DNA of 33,554 nt, taken from positions 1 to 33,554 of the IMG/VR virus record IMGVR_UViG_3300044729_001993; one strand, 5' to 3'. Position numbers and translations under genes: made by a program. This stretch comes from a virus. The notes beneath the pieces are model-generated. The model was not told the DNA's origin. It did not search any database and worked only from the letters and a program-made list of their open reading frames with translations. Below are positions 22,280 through 33,075 of the stretch, piece after piece. The stretch's first letter is position 1, and each line of letters starts with the position of its first letter.

Positions 22280-22699
22280 CTAGATCTCCTGCCAGAGAAT
22301 GGTGTAGGTCTGCGTCACGCTGTAGACGGCGGGTAGCTCGCCACCGGCCAACTGCACGAACCCGTCGCTCTCACTCAGTAGCGACACGTTTCGCACTGAA
22401 ATCCAGTTTCCCAAGGCACCATTGAAACCATCCAGTACCACCCGGCAGCGGTCGGCCAGTTCCCTTACTGCTTCGTAGGTCGTGGCGTACATGTCGACCG
22501 CCAGCGTGACGGTCGCGAGCCCAGACGGCCCCGAGAGGGTGGCTTCCCGCTGCACCGCCTGCCGCCGCCACGTAACGAACGGCAGGGCAGCCGAGGCGGG
22601 GGCGATGACCGGGTAGACGCGATCCCCGGCCAAGTCGGCCACGAGCGGGGCGGCAGCCAGGGCGTCAGCGAGCAGACGTTCGGGCGATTTCACGCTCAT
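22280..22699 (-). CDS. Tail terminator/completion protein (DUF3168-like)
   Basis: This protein has 139 residues. RVYPVIAPASAALPFVTWRR, VTLAVDMYATTYEAVRELAD and a C-terminal VTQTYTILW strand fit the DUF3168/tail completion family. This caps the tail at the head-proximal end and lies between gp10-like and tail tube genes. ATG 22699 overlaps the gp10-like stop. Confidence 0.72.
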   Translation of the reverse strand: MSVKSPERLLADALAAAPLVADLAGDRVYPVIAPASAALPFVTWRRQAVQREATLSGPSGLATVTLAVDMYATTYEAVRELADRCRVVLDGFNGALGNWISVRNVSLLSESDGFVQLAGGELPAVYSVTQTYTILWQEI

Positions 22700-23463
22700 G
22701 TGCCGATAGTCCCCGAGGATCGCTGCGAGAGGGTGCCAACCGCTTGTTCCAGAGTGATCCGCAGTTCACGCTGGAGGATCTCGGCCACGGTCGCCTGGGT
22801 CTCGCTCCAGGCCCGCTTGAGCGGCGGGTCGCCGCTGCCGCCGGGGTTCATGGCGGGGATCGTGATCGGCTCTTTTGATTTCTTGAAGAACGCTCGCGGG
22901 TATCGCGGGTCGGTCACAACGCGATCCCGCTGCGTCGGATCTTTGACCATCTTGAACGGGCCGAGCCGGTTGAAACTCGAAGCGATGTAGGCGTTCTGTC
23001 CGCTGACCGTGTGCTCCCGCACGGTGGTCGTGCTGCCTGACCGATTGCGACGCGTGTGGCTCTTTCGGATGTAGGGAGTGTTTGAGTAGGTCATCACCTG
23101 TCGCGGCTGCGTGCCCTCTTCCAGCCACCACTGATGAAACGCTCGGTCAGGGCCAGATCGGACGGTGCCGCCTGCCGCACTCTCCGATCGAGCGAGCCCC
23201 GCCCGCCGGAAGCCAAGCACCGCCACGGCGTTGCCATCCCGCGTGTAGGCGATCACCTTCTTCGCCACCGCACGCCTGAGATTGCCGGTCGGCCCGAGCG
23301 GCGTCACTGCCTTGAGCCGCTCGAACGCCGGGGCGATCGCCTTCTCTAGCACCGCCTTCAAGATGCGGGCTTTATCGGCGGGCTGAAACAGCCGCCCGAT
23401 ATCCTGCTGCAACTGCCGCAGTTCGGCGATCTCGGCGGTGATCTCAATGCCTGCGACGGCCAT
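22696..23463 (-). CDS. HK97 gp10-like protein
   Basis: This protein has 255 residues from ATG 23463, overlapping the head-closure stop as TGATG (SD GAGGGTGG). The longer frame to 23697 is not coding-like. The N-terminus IEITAEIAELRQLQQDIGRL and the region TPLGPTGNLRRAV match the HK97 gp10/tail-component family. The C-terminus is longer than usual, with a Lys/Arg-rich insertion (KSHTRRNRSG). Acts at the head-tail interface. Confidence 0.78.
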   Translation of the reverse strand: MAVAGIEITAEIAELRQLQQDIGRLFQPADKARILKAVLEKAIAPAFERLKAVTPLGPTGNLRRAVAKKVIAYTRDGNAVAVLGFRRAGLARSESAAGGTVRSGPDRAFHQWWLEEGTQPRQVMTYSNTPYIRKSHTRRNRSGSTTTVREHTVSGQNAYIASSFNRLGPFKMVKDPTQRDRVVTDPRYPRAFFKKSKEPITIPAMNPGGSGDPPLKRAWSETQATVAEILQRELRITLEQAVGTLSQRSSGTIGT

Positions 23464-23786
23464 CAGTCCACCCTCTCGGTGCAAAGCAGTTCGTGCTCGC
23501 TGCGGTTCGCGTGTTCGAGCAGCGTCGTGATCTCCAGCACCCGACCACGCCACAAGAGCCGCATGCTCTGCGTCAGCCCCGTGAGATACCGCAGCCGCAC
23601 GCGGTGCGTGCCCTCGGTTTGCTGCTGCCCCAAGAGCAGCACCTCCCGAGACGAAAGCCCTTCGACGCTGGCCCACCGCGTCGCGAACGTCGACCACTCC
23701 AGCGTGGTCTCTCCGAGCGAGTTGCGTCGCTCGGTGGCCTGCTGAATCGTGATCCGCTCGCGGAGGCGACCGGGGTCAAGTGCCAT
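23463..23786 (-). CDS. Head closure/head-tail joining protein
   Basis: This protein has 107 residues. The start LRERITIQQATERRNSLGE and the LRYLTGLTQSMRLLWRGRVL segment are typical of the phage head-tail joining (SPP1 gp16-like) family. It plugs the connector and attaches the tail. It overlaps the tandem paralogue gene by 11 bases. Confidence 0.85.
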   Translation of the reverse strand: MALDPGRLRERITIQQATERRNSLGETTLEWSTFATRWASVEGLSSREVLLLGQQQTEGTHRVRLRYLTGLTQSMRLLWRGRVLEITTLLEHANRSEHELLCTERVD

Positions 23787-25214: not shown

Positions 25215-25428
25215 TCGGTTTCCTGCCGCGTCGCGGTCGTGCGTCAGCCCGCTCGACCTCGGGCTCGGCTGTCGCCGTCTCGATCAGATCCATCTGCGAC
25301 TCTCGCACGGCGATGCCGTCGCGAATGAGCCGCTCCGCTGTCTCGTTCTCGCACTCGACCACCCGCCCGACCGTGTAGGTCGAGTAGTTCTGTACCAGTT
25401 TGATTTTCACGATTTCGGCAGACTCCAT
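25171..25428 (-). CDS. Small phage protein of unknown function
   Basis: This protein has 85 residues. IKLVQNYSTYTVGRVVECEN with TAERLIRDGIAVRE resembles small proteins often found beside connector genes. The tail is Arg/Pro/Asp-rich (ADARPRRGRKPNAIPQPQDS). It overlaps the glycosyltransferase-like gene by 22 bases. The function is unknown. Confidence 0.6.
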   Translation of the reverse strand: MESAEIVKIKLVQNYSTYTVGRVVECENETAERLIRDGIAVRESQMDLIETATAEPEVERADARPRRGRKPNAIPQPQDSDPADG

Positions 25429-26141
25429 GCAGTTTTCGGCTTACCGTTCGCGGTGTAGTCGCCCACGTACTGGAACACCGGGGATTGGAGATCCTTGCCC
25501 GGCCAGACCGAGACATACTCGCCGTGGCCGATCGAGACGCGGGGCGTGATGTAGACGCGATTCCCAGCGGCACGGAACTGCCGCCAGAAGTGAATATCCG
25601 CATCGACCCGCCCGTCGCCGTACTCGCCCTTGGCGTTGGGCTGGTCTTGAAACCAAGGCTTCGGCGTCCGCTTCAGAGCCCGCGTCGAGATCAGCGTGCA
25701 GCCGAAGTGCGCCGAGTCGACTTCCTGCACAGGCTCCGCGAACCACGACATAGGCAACTCGGTCGCCCCGCCCTCGGGCGGCTTATCGAGCGTGCCGGGC
25801 AAAGTGAACATCGGGCGACCGTCTTCGCGTTTCACTTGCAGCGGGGCAAGAGCGTCGCACTGAAACGCCATCGCCAGGGCGACGAGCTCAGAGACTTCAC
25901 GCTGCCCCCAGAACGAATCGAAGTCTGTGCAAAGGATGTACTCGGTCGAGTCGATGAACTGCTCCATGCACCGCTGGAGCACTTGCCCCCAGAGAGCACC
26001 CTGCCCGAGCGTGGGGCGGATGCCGAGCGGCATGAGGGCTTGAGCCCAGCCGAAGAGATTTGCGAGCGGGCCGAATCGCGGGCCGCTCATCACGCACTCG
26101 ATCCGAACATCGACATCCGTACCGCCGACCTTGACGATCAT
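25407..26141 (-). CDS. Glycosyltransferase-like protein (GT-A type)
   Basis: This protein has 244 residues from ATG 26141. LCTDFDSFW (70-78) contains a DxD motif, the metal-nucleotide-sugar ligand of GT-A transferases. DSAHFGCTLIS (142-152), DADIHFW (180-186) and a conserved-looking GHGEYV (205-210) with His206 complete a typical family-2-like layout. It might glycosylate the capsid or the host surface. It lies within the head operon just behind a strong intrinsic terminator. A function as an enzyme is inferred. The Cys and Trp content is otherwise unremarkable. Confidence 0.6.
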   Translation of the reverse strand: MIVKVGGTDVDVRIECVMSGPRFGPLANLFGWAQALMPLGIRPTLGQGALWGQVLQRCMEQFIDSTEYILCTDFDSFWGQREVSELVALAMAFQCDALAPLQVKREDGRPMFTLPGTLDKPPEGGATELPMSWFAEPVQEVDSAHFGCTLISTRALKRTPKPWFQDQPNAKGEYGDGRVDADIHFWRQFRAAGNRVYITPRVSIGHGEYVSVWPGKDLQSPVFQYVGDYTANGKPKTAWSLPKS

Positions 26142-26149
26142 GAATCCCT

Positions 26150-26191
26150 CAAAAAGAGATGGCGGGCACGGCTCATGCCGCACCCGCCATC
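26150..26191 (-). terminator. Intrinsic terminator after the head genes
   Basis: On the minus strand, GATGGCGGG, UG wobble pairs, CGGC, tetraloop ATGA, GCCG, UG and CCCGCCATC form a continuous stem of about 15 pairs, followed by TCTTTTTG. It lies between the decoration protein stop (26215) and the glycosyltransferase-like gene and would reduce read-through into the connector and tail genes. Confidence 0.8.
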
Positions 26192-26671: not shown

Positions 26672-28027
26672 TCACGAGGCGAACTTGAGGGCGACGATCG
26701 GGCCAGCCTTGCTGGTGTCACCGAGGTCGTGGGCGACCATCGCGACGCGAGCGGTCGCGAAGGTCAGAAGCTGGTCGAACTCGATGAACCGGCTGGAGTC
26801 GGTCTTCACCGTGACCTCACGCCGGGTGCCCATCGTGCAAGCCTGCGACAGATCACCGAACAGGCAGGAGATCGCCGAGCCAGTGCCGGTCAGGCGGCTC
26901 TCAAGGGGGTGGGTGAGAACCACCGGAAATCCAAGAAACTGGAGCCCGCCGCCACCGGCCACATCGGCCCCGTTGTTGCCACCGGCAGCCATGAGGAGCC
27001 GCAGCATCGAGGAGCCGTAGCCAGCCGGGCTGATGTACCACTTGGCATTGCGCCGAGCGTACAGGGGCAGCCGGGCGACCACGTTCGTGAAGTCGCTCAG
27101 ATCGAGCTCGCTGAACACGTTGTTGCCGGTCGCAGCATTGATGACACCCGCCGTGTGGGTGCCGTCGTTGATGGAGACCGCCACGCCGACGGTTCCATGA
27201 TAAACGGCCCCCGCGCCGGTTCCGATAAACGCGGCGTTGTCGAAGGCTTCGCTGTAGGCCTGAGCGACCTCAACGGCCATCGCATCTGCAAGCGAAATCA
27301 CCGAGTCCTCGATCAGCGACATCGGCACGCGGTTATCGACGCCCCAGAGCTTGGCGACGAGTTGCACGTTGTCGAACGTCACATCGCTGGTGGTCGGAGC
27401 CGCGTTCTCGCCGATCGGGCGAGCCGACAGACCGCCGGTGCGACGGGCGATGAGCAGCGTGTCGCTGTTCATCGTCACGTTGCGGGCGTTGGCCGGGAAC
27501 GCACCGAACTCCTCCACGAGCCGGATGATCTCGCTCGACAGTTCGTCGTTGGTCAGCACACCGCCGAGCGAGTTGATGCCGCCCGCCTGGGCACGGCTCT
27601 CGACGCCGTGATCCATGCACCACCGCCGGGCCTCGTCATCGTTGAAGAGACCGGCACGAATCGCCATGCCAGCACGGTAGGCACGCTCCTCGGAGCGGAA
27701 GCCCTTGAGGGGGCGCGACGCCTTCGGCACCGCAAACACAGTTCGCTTCTCCACGGGAGTCTCCTCGGTGGTGGCTTCGATCTTCTTGGCGGGAGCGGCA
27801 CGCTCCAGAACGCTGCGGAGCTCAAGCTCCTTGGTCTGAACCCGCTGGAGGAACTCGATCCGCTCCTTCAGCTTGTCGGCCTTCGCCTCCAGCGAACGGA
27901 GCGAAGCCTCTTGCTCTTCGGTCATCGGCTCGGCGGGAGCCTCACCCTCGGGGGCGTCCTCGGTCATCGCCTCCATCTCGGCGACAACGGCGGCCAGTTC
28001 TTCGAGCAGTGCCTTGATCTTGTCCAC
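26672..28027 (-). CDS. Major capsid protein, HK97 family
   Basis: This protein has 451 residues from GTG 28027 with AGGAG upstream. Residues 1-100 are a charged coiled coil (delta/scaffolding domain), normally removed by the prohead protease. The remainder has HK97-fold signatures: NSLGGVLTNDELSSEIIRLV, TLLIARRTGGLSARPIGENA, NAKWYISPAGYGSSMLRLL and GFPVVLTHPL. It forms the icosahedral shell. Confidence 0.93.
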   Translation of the reverse strand: MDKIKALLEELAAVVAEMEAMTEDAPEGEAPAEPMTEEQEASLRSLEAKADKLKERIEFLQRVQTKELELRSVLERAAPAKKIEATTEETPVEKRTVFAVPKASRPLKGFRSEERAYRAGMAIRAGLFNDDEARRWCMDHGVESRAQAGGINSLGGVLTNDELSSEIIRLVEEFGAFPANARNVTMNSDTLLIARRTGGLSARPIGENAAPTTSDVTFDNVQLVAKLWGVDNRVPMSLIEDSVISLADAMAVEVAQAYSEAFDNAAFIGTGAGAVYHGTVGVAVSINDGTHTAGVINAATGNNVFSELDLSDFTNVVARLPLYARRNAKWYISPAGYGSSMLRLLMAAGGNNGADVAGGGGLQFLGFPVVLTHPLESRLTGTGSAISCLFGDLSQACTMGTRREVTVKTDSSRFIEFDQLLTFATARVAMVAHDLGDTSKAGPIVALKFAS

Positions 28028-28112: not shown

Positions 28113-28295
28113 TTAGCGTGCGTCGGCAGTAAAAGACTTCCGACGAACCTCGCTGCCCGGCACGATCTGCTTGTCGGTGCAGCCGCACCGCTGGCACCGC
28201 AGATAGCGAGTCTGATACTCGCCGCTGCGAACACTCGACGCGACGGCGTACTTACCCTCGCGACAACGCGAGCACGAATCACCACTAGCGGCCAT
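28113..28295 (-). CDS. Small zinc-ribbon protein
   Basis: This protein has 60 residues. CSRCREGKYAV (first CxxC) and RYLRCQRCGCTDK (second CxxC) form a zinc ribbon. It sits between the prohead protease and the capsid genes, overlapping the former by 11 bases. Its role in head assembly or regulation is not known. Confidence 0.6.
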   Translation of the reverse strand: MAASGDSCSRCREGKYAVASSVRSGEYQTRYLRCQRCGCTDKQIVPGSEVRRKSFTADAR

Positions 28296-29295
28296 GCTGC
28301 CTCAGAACGTCGCGATAGAACGCGGCCCGATCCGCGAGATACTTGCGGGCTTCCTCGTGCTGCCGCCGCTCCTGGCGGAAGTGATTGAATGACCGCTGGG
28401 CTACCGTCACGTCGGCATCGGGATACGCCGGGAACGTGACCGGCCCGACATCGAGCAGCGTGTCGATCTTCTGAATCGTCCGCACGCTGCGACCATCCTC
28501 GACCGCCCACGAGTCGCCGCCGCTCGGCACGGTGAAACTGAACGAGGAACCCTTGACGATGCCCGCCCGAATGTTGCTGGCGATGTCGCGGCCGTAGGTC
28601 GTATCGGGCACCGGGAACTCATACCGCAGCCCGACCTCATCCACGGTCATCCGCAGCGTGCCGGGGTAGCGGGCGAGCGGGTAGTTCGCGTCGTGATTCC
28701 AGAGGGCTCTGGTTTCGAGCGGCTTCTTGCGGCCGCGCCGCTCGGCGACGATCCCGAAGGCACCGGGGTCTATCCGCTCTACGAAGTCGCCGAGATCGAG
28801 CGAGTTGACGCCGAACTTCGCGGCGTAGCCCACGATCCATTCCCGATCGTTGCCGTCCTCGCTGCGGCTCTCGACCGCGAGCAGCGGCACCGCCGACTCG
28901 ATCTCGTCAATCGCCAGAGAACGCCGTTCGATGTTGCCCATGATGCTCCTGCCTTCTTGGTCGGCGGCTTCAATCTGCCGCGTCAGTTTGCTCGCCCACG
29001 CCTGCCCCGGATCGCCACCCCACAACGCCCACGCGATCCGGCCCGCACTCGGGAAGCCGTCCTCGCCGGGGCTCCATCCCTCGCCTTGCTTGTCCACTTC
29101 GTGCCGGGCGAAGTAACTCGCCATCCGCTTCGCCGTGTCGGGCGAGATGCTCACGCCGTTCGAGAGGTCGCGTGCTCGGGCAACGCCGACTGCCGTGCCG
29201 CCTCGGCCGTACTCGTCTCGCCACGCGAGCCCCCTCGCTGCTTCCTCACGCACGCCAGCCGGGGGCGTGAAGTCGATGTGGTCATACCTAGCCAC
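28285..29295 (-). CDS. Prohead protease (S78 type) with extra N-terminal domain
   Basis: This protein has 336 residues from GTG 29295, overlapping the portal gene by eight bases. Residues about 120-270 contain VGYAAKFGV, ERIDPGAF, LWNHD (catalytic His201), LARYPGTLR and GSSFSF (catalytic serine near 250), matching the HK97 prohead protease. It should remove the capsid delta domain. Residues 1-110 form a separate domain with SISPDTAKRMASYFARHEVD and AGRIAWALWGG, seen in other phage proteins but unusual here. ATG 28941 has a good AGGAG and could make the protease domain alone. Confidence 0.88.
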   Translation of the reverse strand: MARYDHIDFTPPAGVREEAARGLAWRDEYGRGGTAVGVARARDLSNGVSISPDTAKRMASYFARHEVDKQGEGWSPGEDGFPSAGRIAWALWGGDPGQAWASKLTRQIEAADQEGRSIMGNIERRSLAIDEIESAVPLLAVESRSEDGNDREWIVGYAAKFGVNSLDLGDFVERIDPGAFGIVAERRGRKKPLETRALWNHDANYPLARYPGTLRMTVDEVGLRYEFPVPDTTYGRDIASNIRAGIVKGSSFSFTVPSGGDSWAVEDGRSVRTIQKIDTLLDVGPVTFPAYPDADVTVAQRSFNHFRQERRQHEEARKYLADRAAFYRDVLRQHGR

Positions 29296-31444
29296 GCTTC
29301 CGCCCCTTCCGCTTCGGCTTGCCGTAGGAGCTCTCCTCAACCGGGGGCGGCTCGGGCAGCGGTTCGATCTTCGTGAGCGTGCTCACCTTGTGACCGACTT
29401 GCGTCTCGGTCGCACGCCATCCGCCGATCACCTCTTCGTAGACCGTGATGAGGGCGGCGGGATCTTCCTCGGTCGCGTCGATCTTGAAATCGGTGCCGGG
29501 GATGTCCAGCGTGCCGTAGTCCATCACATGGTCGATCCGCCCGCGAGCACGACCGCCCGACGAATCCCACGAAACGAAGTCACCCTCCGCAACGCTGCCG
29601 GGGGCGGCACGCGACTCGCTACGAATGAACTGAGGCGAATCGTCCACCCACACGTCAACGTCGATGCCAGCCGCCTGGGCCGCATCATCTTTGAGCGTGT
29701 CACTACCCACGAGCAGCACATCGGAGAAAGCCTCGGCGTAGTCGCCGAGAGATGAGATCACCTCCTCTCGATCCGCCTCGGGCCTGCGAGAAATCATCAC
29801 GACACGATTGCCGTCCGCGACCGCCTTGCGGGCGAACTCGCCCCAGAGCCGAGGATCGGCCGCGAACGTCCGGTCGAAGTCCACCGAGATCGTCATCGAT
29901 CGGCTCGCGGGGAGCGAGGCGGCGGCGGGCTCGGGAGCGGGCGGCTCTGCGACCGGCGCGGGGGCGGCAGCCTGCGTGCTCGTGCCCGCGAGGATGCGAT
30001 CAACCGAAGCCGGTGGGATGCTGGGGAACGATGCGAGAATCAACGCCCCAGCCGCGTCGGTGGTCAGGAGCCCGCCACTGACTTGCGTCAGGATCTCCAA
30101 AATGCCGGTGATCTGGGCACCGTTGAGCGAAACGTCGGCGAGTTGCGGTTCATCCGCCTGGGCCGGGGCGGCATCCGCGACCGGCTCGGGAGCCGGGGCG
30201 GTCTCGTCCACCACGATCTCTTCGACCACGGTCGCGGGCATCGGCTCGGGAGCAGCCGCCGCCTTCTCCAGCGTGGTCATGTTGAGTTGGACGAACCGCG
30301 TGTCGCCGCCTTCGACGGGGTTCATGTTCTCCCACGAGCGGATCTCGTTCACGCTCGCCACGCCCAGATTCCAGAGCGTGTTGTAGTACGCCGAGCGGCC
30401 CGCAGCGTCGGCACGCAACACGCCGCGAGTGTCGAACTCTGCGAAGTATTCGTCATCGCCTTCGAGCAAGTCGCGAGCGATCGAAGACTCGATGCGACGC
30501 AGATACGGCATCAGCCCGTTCGTCAAGAAGTCGAGCGATTGCTGCTCGATATTCGAGAAAGAACTTCTGGTCAAATCGCCCACGAGGTGTGGGGGAACGC
30601 CAAAGAGCCGACACACTTCTTCAACTTGGAAGCGGCGAGCCTCAAGGAACTGGCTCTCTTGGTTGTTCCCGCCGAGCTCCGAAACTTTGAGCCCCCCCTG
30701 CAATACTGCCGTTCGGTTGCTTCGGTCTGGGCCGCGATGAGCCCTCTCCCACTGGTTCCTCGTATTCTCAGCCGCCTCGGGCGAAAGCATCTGATCGGTG
30801 GACAAGATCACGCCCGGACGAGCCCCGTTGCCGAAGAACGTCGCCCCGTGGATCTCGCACGCCCGAGCCAGCCCGATCGCATCGCGGGCGAGCTCAATCG
30901 TGCTCATCCCGTTCACGCCGTCATCGCTCATCCCCCGCACCGACATCACCGCATCCTGCGTGTAGACCGTCGAAGACCCCGACGCTTCGCGGTACGTGTA
31001 CCGCAGCCGGTTGTTTTCGAGTTGCTCGGTCTTCACCCGGCTCGGGTGCAGCGGCACGATCTCGCTGATCGTCCCCCCGCTGTAGACCTTCTCATCGAGA
31101 GCGAACCCGTGCGAGAGCAAGTGCAGCATCATCTGCTCACGCCACTCGAACGAGGTCTGCCACGAGTTCGGCTGCGAGTGCAGGAGCCGATAGAGCGGAT
31201 GCTCGCGGGCGATCTCTTTCCCGCCACCCGACAGCCGCCGGTAGAGATGCAGCGGGAGCCCCGCGACACTGGTCGAGAGCACGCGAATGCACGCGAGCAC
31301 CACGGTCGAACGCAACGCGGTCTCGGCGTCCACCTTCACGCCCGACGGATTGCGGTTGCCGCCAGCCCAGCCCCCAGACTCATAGTCCCAGTTGCGGGAG
31401 TCTTCGCCGGGGAGCCACAGGATGCGAGCGGTTGGGGAGATCAT
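29288..31444 (-). CDS. Portal protein fused to HAD-like and Tudor-like domains
   Basis: This protein has 718 residues, about 300 longer than a usual HK97 portal. Residues 1-390 are portal (VVLACIRVLSTSVAGLPLHLY; EEVCRLFGVPPHLVGDLTR). Residues 438-487 hold a small helical domain (NGAQITGILEILTQV). After Pro/Ala linkers, 517-607 is HAD-like, with DFDRT (522-526), Ser552, Lys585 and VDDSP (600-604). Residues 617-695 resemble the HVA1/DUF2945-type Tudor domain (EGDFVSWDSSGGRARGRI and VGHKVSTLTKI). The tail is Lys/Arg-rich. The portal forms the dodecameric DNA channel. The extra domains would sit on each subunit, if they are retained in the particle. Confidence 0.85.
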   Translation of the reverse strand: MISPTARILWLPGEDSRNWDYESGGWAGGNRNPSGVKVDAETALRSTVVLACIRVLSTSVAGLPLHLYRRLSGGGKEIAREHPLYRLLHSQPNSWQTSFEWREQMMLHLLSHGFALDEKVYSGGTISEIVPLHPSRVKTEQLENNRLRYTYREASGSSTVYTQDAVMSVRGMSDDGVNGMSTIELARDAIGLARACEIHGATFFGNGARPGVILSTDQMLSPEAAENTRNQWERAHRGPDRSNRTAVLQGGLKVSELGGNNQESQFLEARRFQVEEVCRLFGVPPHLVGDLTRSSFSNIEQQSLDFLTNGLMPYLRRIESSIARDLLEGDDEYFAEFDTRGVLRADAAGRSAYYNTLWNLGVASVNEIRSWENMNPVEGGDTRFVQLNMTTLEKAAAAPEPMPATVVEEIVVDETAPAPEPVADAAPAQADEPQLADVSLNGAQITGILEILTQVSGGLLTTDAAGALILASFPSIPPASVDRILAGTSTQAAAPAPVAEPPAPEPAAASLPASRSMTISVDFDRTFAADPRLWGEFARKAVADGNRVVMISRRPEADREEVISSLGDYAEAFSDVLLVGSDTLKDDAAQAAGIDVDVWVDDSPQFIRSESRAAPGSVAEGDFVSWDSSGGRARGRIDHVMDYGTLDIPGTDFKIDATEEDPAALITVYEEVIGGWRATETQVGHKVSTLTKIEPLPEPPPVEESSYGKPKRKGRKRG

Positions 31445-33075
31445 ATGAGCAGGATGGAGGGTTCGGCTGCGGGCTTGTTGGTGATCTGCGACGATTCCCA
31501 GCCGCCCAGGGCGAAGATCAGAGCGACGATCCCGTCGATGCGACCCGTGCTCTTTTTCTTCACCGGCCGAACGTCCTCAAACGAGTTCGTCTCCACCGTC
31601 ACATTCGCCGACATCCACGAGAGCACTGGGTTGCCACCGTGGCGGATGCGATTCTGAAGCACCAGCGATTCGAGCCTCTTAGTACCCGAGCTCATGCCTC
31701 GGAAGCCTTGGCTCCATCCTGCCACTTTCAACCCCGCCCCTTGCAGTTCCACGGCCAACTGAACCGCCCCGGTGAGATCCATGTAGATGTGCTCGATCTG
31801 GTGCGTCTTCGCGTACTCCAAGACGTACTCGCGGATCTTCGAGTGGTCGATCACGTTCCCGTCGGTCGCCGTGATGTACCCCGAGTTCACCCAGTGCTGG
31901 AACGGCTGCCGGTCGGTTCGCTCCCGCTCCATGATGAGATCGCGGGGTGCCCAGAACATCGCATCGACCTCGAACTCGTCACCCTCGCACGGGTAAAGGG
32001 CGACCATCGCGGAGAGGTCGGTTGACTTCGACAAGTCCATCCCGAGGATGCACTTCCTACCGGCGAAGGGCGAAGTCGGGCCACCAGAGCACGCGGCCCA
32101 CTTCTCAGGATCGAGCCACCTATTCGTGCTTTCTGTCCAAACTCCTAAGGAATATCTCAACCAGCCATTGAGCTTGGTCGCTTTATTTCTCGCCTCGCGG
32201 GCATCCGCCGCGAAGGATTCCTCGGTCATGGTGATTCCCATGCCAGGATTCACCCGCCGCCACACCGCCGGGTCGAAGTAGTCCTCGCTCCCGTCAGTCT
32301 TTGCCCCGAAGATCTTCCCGTAGAAGCGGGGATCGTAGTTCGGATCGGCAGCGGTCAACTCCGCATATTCGTGCTGCTCCCAGCAAATCGTGTCACGCCG
32401 ATCGCCCGCCGTTGAGATCGTCGCGAGGAGCGGCTCGCGCCTGGAACGGCCCGAATAGCGGAGTGCCTCGAATAGCCTCCGGTCGGGCCACGCGTGCAGT
32501 TCGTCGCAGAAGACGAACGAGTAGGACGGGCCTTCCGCCGCACCGGCATCTCGCGAGATCACTCGCAGGCTCGAGCCGGTCTGCTGACAGACGATCGTTT
32601 TTCTCGAGTCCACCACCTCGAGCGACGCCGCCAGTTCGGGCGACCGCTTCACCATCGCGGCGGTCTCGTCAAAGATAATCGCCGCTTGATTGCGATCCTT
32701 CGCCGCGATGCACCCGAGCTCGCCCTCGCCCTCCATCAGCAAGTGCCAGATCGAGAGGCACGAGAGCAGCGTGCTCTTCGCGTTTTTTTTCGGCACTTCG
32801 ATGTAGGCGAGCCGATACCTCCGAAGCCCTTCCTCGGTTCGCCATCCATAGAGCGGCTCGATCACATCCTGCTTGTGCCACTCCAGAAGCCGCATCGGCT
32901 CGCCAGCCTTGGCGGTCGGGGAGTCTTTTGTGTGGCAGCACACCGACTCCAAGAATCCCACCACCAGATCGGCGGCGTCTTGATCGTAGCGGTAGCCCGC
33001 GACCCACTCAGCCCGACGCCTTGCGGGCATCGCGGAGGGCGCGGAACTTGTCGATTGCGCTTTCCGCCTTGGCAT
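31441..33075 (-). CDS. Terminase large subunit
   Basis: This protein has 544 residues. Walker A-like VPKKNAKST lies at 94-102 and Walker B FVFCDE at 187-192, the ATPase of DNA packaging. GMDLSKSTDLSA and downstream acidic residues make up the RNase H-like nuclease. The pattern fits terminase_1 family. ATG 33075 has AAGGTGG and overlaps the small subunit gene by 68 bases. ATG 33030 without a ribosome site is an alternative. It pumps the genome through the portal. Confidence 0.93.
   Translation of the reverse strand: MPRRKAQSTSSAPSAMPARRRAEWVAGYRYDQDAADLVVGFLESVCCHTKDSPTAKAGEPMRLLEWHKQDVIEPLYGWRTEEGLRRYRLAYIEVPKKNAKSTLLSCLSIWHLLMEGEGELGCIAAKDRNQAAIIFDETAAMVKRSPELAASLEVVDSRKTIVCQQTGSSLRVISRDAGAAEGPSYSFVFCDELHAWPDRRLFEALRYSGRSRREPLLATISTAGDRRDTICWEQHEYAELTAADPNYDPRFYGKIFGAKTDGSEDYFDPAVWRRVNPGMGITMTEESFAADAREARNKATKLNGWLRYSLGVWTESTNRWLDPEKWAACSGGPTSPFAGRKCILGMDLSKSTDLSAMVALYPCEGDEFEVDAMFWAPRDLIMERERTDRQPFQHWVNSGYITATDGNVIDHSKIREYVLEYAKTHQIEHIYMDLTGAVQLAVELQGAGLKVAGWSQGFRGMSSGTKRLESLVLQNRIRHGGNPVLSWMSANVTVETNSFEDVRPVKKKSTGRIDGIVALIFALGGWESSQITNKPAAEPSILLI

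Follow-up and report, generated by a model that had tools for sequence, protein, structure and literature searches.

A portal protein with a modular C-terminal tail

We analyzed a viral DNA stretch of 33,554 nucleotides (IMG/VR record IMGVR_UViG_3300044729_001993, positions 1 to 33,554; hereafter the window), focusing on a portal gene whose product carries a long, multidomain C-terminal tail. The gene lies at 29288..31444 on the minus strand, starts with an ATG at 31444 and encodes 718 amino acids (aa). Pfam family PF04860 matched the translation over profile positions 2-321 of 321 (E = 1.9e-104; 349.8 bits against a cut-off of 39.1), identifying an HK97-type portal. The core (residues 1-392; 30269..31444, minus strand) was delimited by this match (residues 48-373) and by phmmer alignments to the Protein Data Bank (PDB) portals 9lbn_H (residues 32-393) and 8cez_A (residues 37-391). 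Past residue 392 we counted 326 further residues, in line with the roughly 330 that a first-pass annotation of the sequence had placed after a normal portal, and these run from an acidic/Pro-rich linker through a helical domain, a Pro/Ala linker, a HAD-fold domain and an Hva1/Tudor-like domain to a basic end.

The portal gene has the terminase large subunit on one side (31441..33075, minus strand; PF20441 and PF03354) and the prohead protease on the other (28285..29340, minus strand; Peptidase_S78, PF04586, E = 2.2e-38). The protease bears an N-terminal accessory domain, here given the working label PEPN, which resembles phrog_2859 at residues 14-126, and its gene is uninterrupted in the window. 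Beyond it lies the major capsid protein (26672..28027, minus strand; PF05065 at residues 155-430), with an N-terminal scaffold-like region and an invariant R145-A146 step. Among 50,697 records of cultured phages the portal was matched in 1831, none of them at 80% query coverage. Two scans of genome contigs for relatives that might link the phage to a host gave 19 pattern matches, of which none encoded a relative, and no matches, respectively.

The HAD-fold domain spans residues 517-608 (29621..29896; this and all other tail coordinates are on the minus strand) and contains D522-x-D524-x-T526, S552, K585 and D601-D602. All five residues singled out by the first-pass annotation (D522, D524, S552, K585 and D601) are thus present in the open reading frame (ORF), together with D602, and the domain has all four HAD motifs (I, DxD; II, S/T; III, K; IV, DD). 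Two PHROG families of unknown function, phrog_4256 and phrog_4919, matched residues 514-612 at about 5e-12. Aligned portals with a HAD keep the four motifs, as do standalone phage proteins at about 30% identity, and dN/dS over the domain was 0.10-0.28 in 12 of 12 pairs tested; the motif pattern is therefore not a product of chance. An inactive relic was also considered and is ruled out by the retained motifs and the low dN/dS.

Structure prediction of the tail, made with AlphaFold2 from 25 aligned tails (mean predicted local distance difference test (pLDDT) 72; predicted template modelling score 0.34), gave confident blocks for HAD (pLDDT 79-92; tail-model residues 121-210), the Hva1 part (80-94) and the helical domain (81-86), with the linkers and the end below 50. 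The top HAD matches in VIA-align, where absences from the match lists were not taken as evidence, were all to the 3'-phosphatase domain of T4 Pnkp (5uj0, 1rrc and 1rpz, Z 9.7-9.8; 2ia5, Z 9.1), over 93-95 residues at a root-mean-square deviation of 2.5-2.8 and 15-17% identity. Against viral models, Foldseek returned 28 matches at E<=0.001, including HAD-like phage proteins, a prohead protease and an XkdF-type protein. A HAD fold is thus predicted, by a confident AlphaFold2 model and VIA Z scores of up to 9.8, and we consider the domain probably an active phosphatase.

The Hva1/Tudor-like domain occupies residues 617-694 (29363..29596) and was matched by PF11160 at residues 621-667 (26.5 bits against a cut-off of 24.1). 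AlphaFold2 modeled it as a beta barrel. VIA-align matched this barrel to Tudor-type domains (SHH1 SAWADEE and PAPI extended Tudor) with Z scores of 6.3-6.5, which may reflect no more than a shared arrangement. Pfam, the alignments and the predicted folds agree that both domains are fused to a true portal, as had been proposed from the sequence. Of the other tail parts, the helical domain (working label HLX; residues 437-490, 29975..30136) consists of three short helices, and the C terminus (residues 695-718, 29291..29362) is a Pro/Glu stretch followed by the basic end GKPKRKGRKRG.

Cassette turnover and other carriers of HAD and Hva1

We compared the window portal with the best 80 of 232 viral-contig relatives from one scan, giving 81 portals in which architecture frequencies are biased, two of the six scan peptides having been taken from HAD and Hva1. 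The helical domain was present in all 81, in two sequence types. Counting Hva1 and a second, diverged Tudor-like domain (found in L023, L054, L067 and L080) together as Tudor, the common architectures were helical-HAD-Tudor (39), helical-HAD (19) and helical-Tudor (14), with five portals cut by contig ends and one case each of HAD-Tudor-Tudor, Tudor-Tudor, HAD-Tudor-CGTG-PASTA and HAD-CGTG-PASTA (CGTG and PASTA being working labels). HAD occurred in 66 of the 81 portals of this set, enriched as it is for HAD and Hva1, so the domains are not absent from related portals, an outcome that the first-pass annotation had named as speaking against its claim. The basic end was found in nearly all tails inspected, whichever cassettes they carried, with L038 ending without it. 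The tails of L037 and L070 are lengthened by an NCGTGxxGFxxGNTC motif, a Gly/Ser stretch and a small extra domain.

Portal cores and tail domains differ in their degree of divergence. Nine portals (L062, L068 and L072-L078) are 46-64% identical to the window in the core, 89-90% in HAD and 90-91% in Hva1, whereas L023 is 90-99% identical in the core, only 72% in HAD and 61% in Hva1. Synonymous divergence gave the same two patterns: dS between the window and L062 was 1.24 for the core, 0.52 for HAD and 0.42 for Hva1, and between the window and L034 it was 0.61 for the core and 1.28 for HAD. In L041 and L044 a gap cleanly removes window positions 29618-29925, which correspond to HAD, between flanks that are 89% and 85% identical. 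Identical cores also carry different tails, both in L016 and L019 (HAD-Tudor) versus L080 (Tudor-Tudor) and in L024 (HAD-Tudor) versus L081 (HAD only). A core tree of 79 cores (61 distinct), built by a quick method and with many weak forks, required at least nine changes in HAD presence and at least six in Tudor presence. Among 14 records searched, which are possibly fragments, nine had a single HAD, located in the portal frame, and the five with a HAD-less portal had none. HAD and Tudor domains are therefore gained, lost and swapped as precise cassettes among otherwise near-identical phages, and both HAD and the Tudor-like domain are under purifying selection. That the portal tail bears a HAD-fold domain with intact catalytic motifs, and that this domain behaves as a cassette, we regard as virtually certain.

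Outside the portals, HAD matched 73 cultured-phage records (60 listed, four inspected) and Hva1 matched two, both inspected. The HAD relatives in named phages are standalone proteins of 105-130 aa, adjoining MazG in 4MG, near thymidylate synthase and queuosine genes in Motura, near ribonucleotide reductase in phiM6 and near DNA polymerase in SU10. When a profile scan was led by the phiM6 protein, 79 of its 80 loci were short ORFs (83-233 aa between stops) and the other, L254, was a long ORF; the neighbours of these loci (91 of 122 listed) included four dATP/dGTP diphosphohydrolases, a ribonucleotide reductase, Toprim and DnaB proteins, and MazG-type proteins also occur beside standalone HADs. 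Because of the fold and these neighbours a nucleotide or polynucleotide phosphate is the favoured substrate, an assignment that we rate as an even call. Known standalone HADs (phrog_4256 and phrog_4919) are direct sequence relatives of the portal domain at about 30% identity, but are small separate genes in replication or nucleotide regions, unfused to head proteins.

A second scan, led by the HAD of L254, also gave 80 loci, of which 46 (24 distinct contexts) were Peptidase_S78-type prohead proteases with HAD on the C-terminal side. Pfam confirmed the protease in both fusions submitted (L325 and L347). In these 46 loci (within L323-L377), HAD follows the protease catalytic domain and precedes a C-terminal helix that is Ala-rich or basic. 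Two lambda-family portals (PF05136) also carry a C-terminal HAD: L299, on the same contig as L254, and L300. HAD has thus been fused to three or more kinds of protein from the head interior. High cassette turnover is consistent with recombination dropping intact neighbouring or foreign domains into linkers, where they would have little function; we consider such passenger domains very improbable, given the purifying selection, the conserved catalytic set and the sharing of one HAD by three types of head protein.

Of 80 loci in an Hva1 scan, 64 combine the domain in one frame with a protease or capsid domain, ten with PEPN only and six have it alone or doubled; several of these ORFs end at contig ends. 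Among named phages, Roseobacter phage CRP-811 has it in a protease-capsid polyprotein, and Limnohabitans phage DC31 in a coiled-coil protein beside the capsid genes. Because it is so widely joined to prohead proteases and capsid polyproteins, Hva1 belongs to the assembly core. This distribution, together with a basic end that is retained whichever cassettes are present, also favours an explanation in which the tail serves assembly and is not cargo: at procapsid nucleation its modules (Tudor-like domain, HAD and basic end) would help the portal recruit the protease, the scaffold region or the terminase and DNA, with HAD working as a scaffold for binding or as a regulatory switch. Mere binding, however, would need neither intact catalytic motifs nor a dN/dS of 0.10-0.28, and HAD is absent from some otherwise near-identical phages; we therefore judge this explanation unlikely. 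As for PEPN, its type varies between phages with like portals, and most of the 80 loci have it alongside Hva1 on a prohead protease or a protease-capsid polyprotein.

Candidate processing sites and a proposed lumenal role

Each HAD or Tudor-type cassette is preceded by the same kind of short sequence step. In the window, R515 (SR/SM; 29900..29902) stands before HAD and R612 (ESR/AAPG; 29609..29611) before Hva1, and both are candidate processing sites. Across the relatives, R-[AS] was found at 66 of 66 HAD boundaries, R-A at 58 of 58 Hva1 boundaries and R-[AS] ahead of all four second Tudor-like domains, with a variable residue preceding the R. The HAD linkers that could be excised have R at -2 in 63 of 63 cases, and most of their other positions are free of R. 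An R-A or R-S step also lies ahead of HAD in many contexts among the protease-HAD fusions.

The capsid proteins of the same phages have a comparable step. An invariant R-A within V-x-x-R-A-Q-[AS]-G-G was present in 53 of 54 aligned rows, the remaining row being gapped there, and lies ten residues ahead of the Pfam capsid domain. In HK97, the capsid-protein scaffold domain comprises 103 residues (PMC10275583), which places the R-A step roughly at the HK97-type cut position and makes it a likely maturation site. The window capsid protein, searched as a single sequence, had no PDB match at E<=0.01; a capsid profile gave weak matches only, the best being 9gyi_B (E = 0.0028), whose ETRALSTG aligned at the R-A step. 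From these shared steps we infer that cleavage by the protease may be common to the capsid protein and the portal tail.

Portals form rings of twelve copies. A C-terminal fusion, at or near the crown inside the capsid, would therefore give the portal an exchangeable cargo tail and put twelve copies of a capless HAD phosphatase into the procapsid lumen, where the Tudor-like domain and the basic end might hold DNA or the protease/scaffold core. During capsid-protein maturation the prohead protease would cut behind the R of the R-A/S linkers, and the freed HAD would stay in the head and be ejected with the DNA. Early in infection it could then dephosphorylate nucleotides or DNA/RNA ends, for example in end repair or in the removal of nucleotide signals. 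The crown of known portals is turned towards the inside of the capsid and contacts packaged DNA (PMC10359639), and the C-terminal barrel of the P22 portal putatively extends inward (PMC4992974). Because the crown and the P22 C termini point inward, and because the same HAD is borne by other head-interior proteins, a lumenal cargo or accessory role in the procapsid is the best reading of the portal tail and one that we think reasonably likely.

That HAD is processed at R-A/S and ejected we hold more tentatively. The first-pass annotation had suggested that the module could be cleaved off or serve as DNA-ejection cargo, and both the recurrence of HAD on other head-interior proteins and the R-A/S step at each boundary point that way; cleavage itself we infer from the pattern of these steps. 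Tentative too is a wider scheme, in which the lumenal ends of head-assembly proteins (portal and prohead-protease C termini) may form a general modular loading dock in environmental phages, with recombining enzyme cassettes freed at R-A/S during capsid maturation and twelve (portal) or more (protease) phosphatase copies ejected with the genome.

Several observations weigh against the cargo reading. A group of protease-HAD fusions reads AAAAAPG.AQGLL, with no R directly ahead of HAD, and the R-A could belong to the border of each cassette and not be a cut site; were the portal left uncut, HAD would stay inside the head. Since 15 of the 81 portals lack it, HAD is dispensable. The full-length portal model (AlphaFold, single sequence with no alignment) had a pLDDT of 37 and so does not give the orientation of the tail. 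As to substrate, the VIA score for MDP-1 (Z 8.7) is only about one unit under that of the best Pnkp match (9.8), so likeness to Pnkp tells little. Foldseek of HAD against PDB gave no match at E<=0.001, and Pfam, whose library includes PF25109 HAD_PNKP, did not match HAD and returned only two families at E<=1 for the portal ORF. The domain shares its fold with the T4 Pnkp 3'-phosphatase, and the DxD, S/T, K and DD motifs are general HAD features; it differs in its 15-17% identity, in leaving HAD_PNKP unmatched and in lacking a kinase partner in the window ORF.

The Pnkp-like fold and the contact between portal crown and packaged DNA (PMC10359639) also suit an enzyme working in place on the portal during packaging, a polynucleotide phosphatase that trims terminase-made DNA ends or repairs nicks in the entering genome. 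Such a role seems to us quite improbable, because HAD is dispensable and is borne by proteases, which are outside the packaging motor, and neither a kinase nor a ligase turned up in those window ORFs that were scanned.

The lumenal cargo reading has precedents. Iyer et al. 2017 (PMC5512222) described RNase (PBECR), 2H-phosphoesterase and inorganic-pyrophosphatase (InPase) domains on portal or MuF head proteins and predicted that such fusions are packaged and injected, so that calling the phosphatase-like module unexpected, as the first-pass annotation did, was too strong. Portal-enzyme fusion with predicted injection is already known, and HAD/Tudor cassettes on the portal are an added variant. 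The window portal, L299 and L300 resemble those polyvalent-type fusions in having an enzyme domain in one frame with the portal; they differ in that HAD and Tudor cassettes are not named in the excerpts of that paper considered here, are polymorphic between near-identical phages and, for HAD, also occur on prohead proteases. T4 Alt and internal proteins that bear a capsid targeting sequence, and processed head proteins of the giant phage SPN3US, are positioned inside the procapsid and cleaved by prohead protease, and the SPN3US portal has a long cleaved propeptide (PMC5694885). In those systems the extension is N-terminal and the targeting piece is removed; the window's candidate cargo, by contrast, forms the C-terminal part of the portal and its cleavage is putative. 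MuF polymorphic toxins likewise have a variable C-terminal domain on a portal-linked head protein, but the carrier is another protein and the phages are temperate Firmicutes phages (PMC5576092). In the titles and abstract openings of the open-licence literature we found no HAD-portal or HAD-prohead-protease fusion, and nothing was found in open-licence literature on Hva1 in phage.

If the cargo reading is correct, structural head proteins are reused as delivery vehicles whose payloads are swapped domain by domain. The presence or absence of HAD in near-identical phages then provides natural matched pairs for the role of a packaged enzyme at the start of infection, and the R-A/S linkers predict the cleavage specificity of these prohead proteases.

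An in-frame stop in related protease genes and other window proteins

In relatives of the window protease, an in-frame Leu-stop-Leu interrupts PEPN precisely at the junction of AWAL and WGG. The interruption was found in 18 of the 69 protease loci compared (for example, L002:5423-5425; the others are L003, L007, L013, L014, L024, L057-L059, L062, L065, L068, L073-L077 and L080). A pattern search recovered 52 viral contigs (L059 and L088-L138), which are related by descent and cassette exchange, and the same 52 when the flanking codons were left free. Their codon triples were CTT-TAG-CTT (26), CTT-TAA-CTA (15), CTT-TAG-CTA (5), CTT-TAG-CTC (3), CTG-TAG-CTG (2) and CTC-TAG-CTC (1). The flanking Leu codons match or are plausibly readable by one tRNA, and the identity of the stop varies. 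The take-off codon was CTT in 31 of 33 distinct contexts, whereas the rest of these frames uses CTT for 94 of 1342 Leu codons. No tRNA genes were found in the 32 of 52 loci scanned.

Downstream of the stop, codons 2-18 had a pN/pS of 0.19 in frame versus 1.49 and 1.66 in the other two frames, and the post-stop sequence is thus under in-frame purifying selection. A Leu-to-Leu hop over the stop would restore the exact length of uninterrupted relatives, whereas readthrough would add two residues. These genes are candidates for a natural 6-nucleotide in-frame 'stop hop', and restart at the ATG of post-stop codon 18 (present in 31 of 33 contexts) is additionally possible. On hopping over in-frame stops, the relevant passage of a 2016 review states that 'no occurences are known' in nature, synthetic ones being known (PMC5009743), and no later natural case was found by title in the literature searched.

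Three other window proteins, all encoded on the minus strand, drew attention. The protein at 22696-23697 is Neck1/tail-completion-like (phrog_5), with 155 profile positions spread over 267 residues, suggesting an insertion; a search of it for the portal tail modules found none. The 258-aa protein encoded at 25407-26183, downstream of the capsid genes, has no Pfam match, and its TDFDSFW stretch gives the impression of a glycosyltransferase DxD motif. The protein at 8728-9219 matches LPD29 (PF18847, E = 4e-24), a domain named after large polyvalent proteins.

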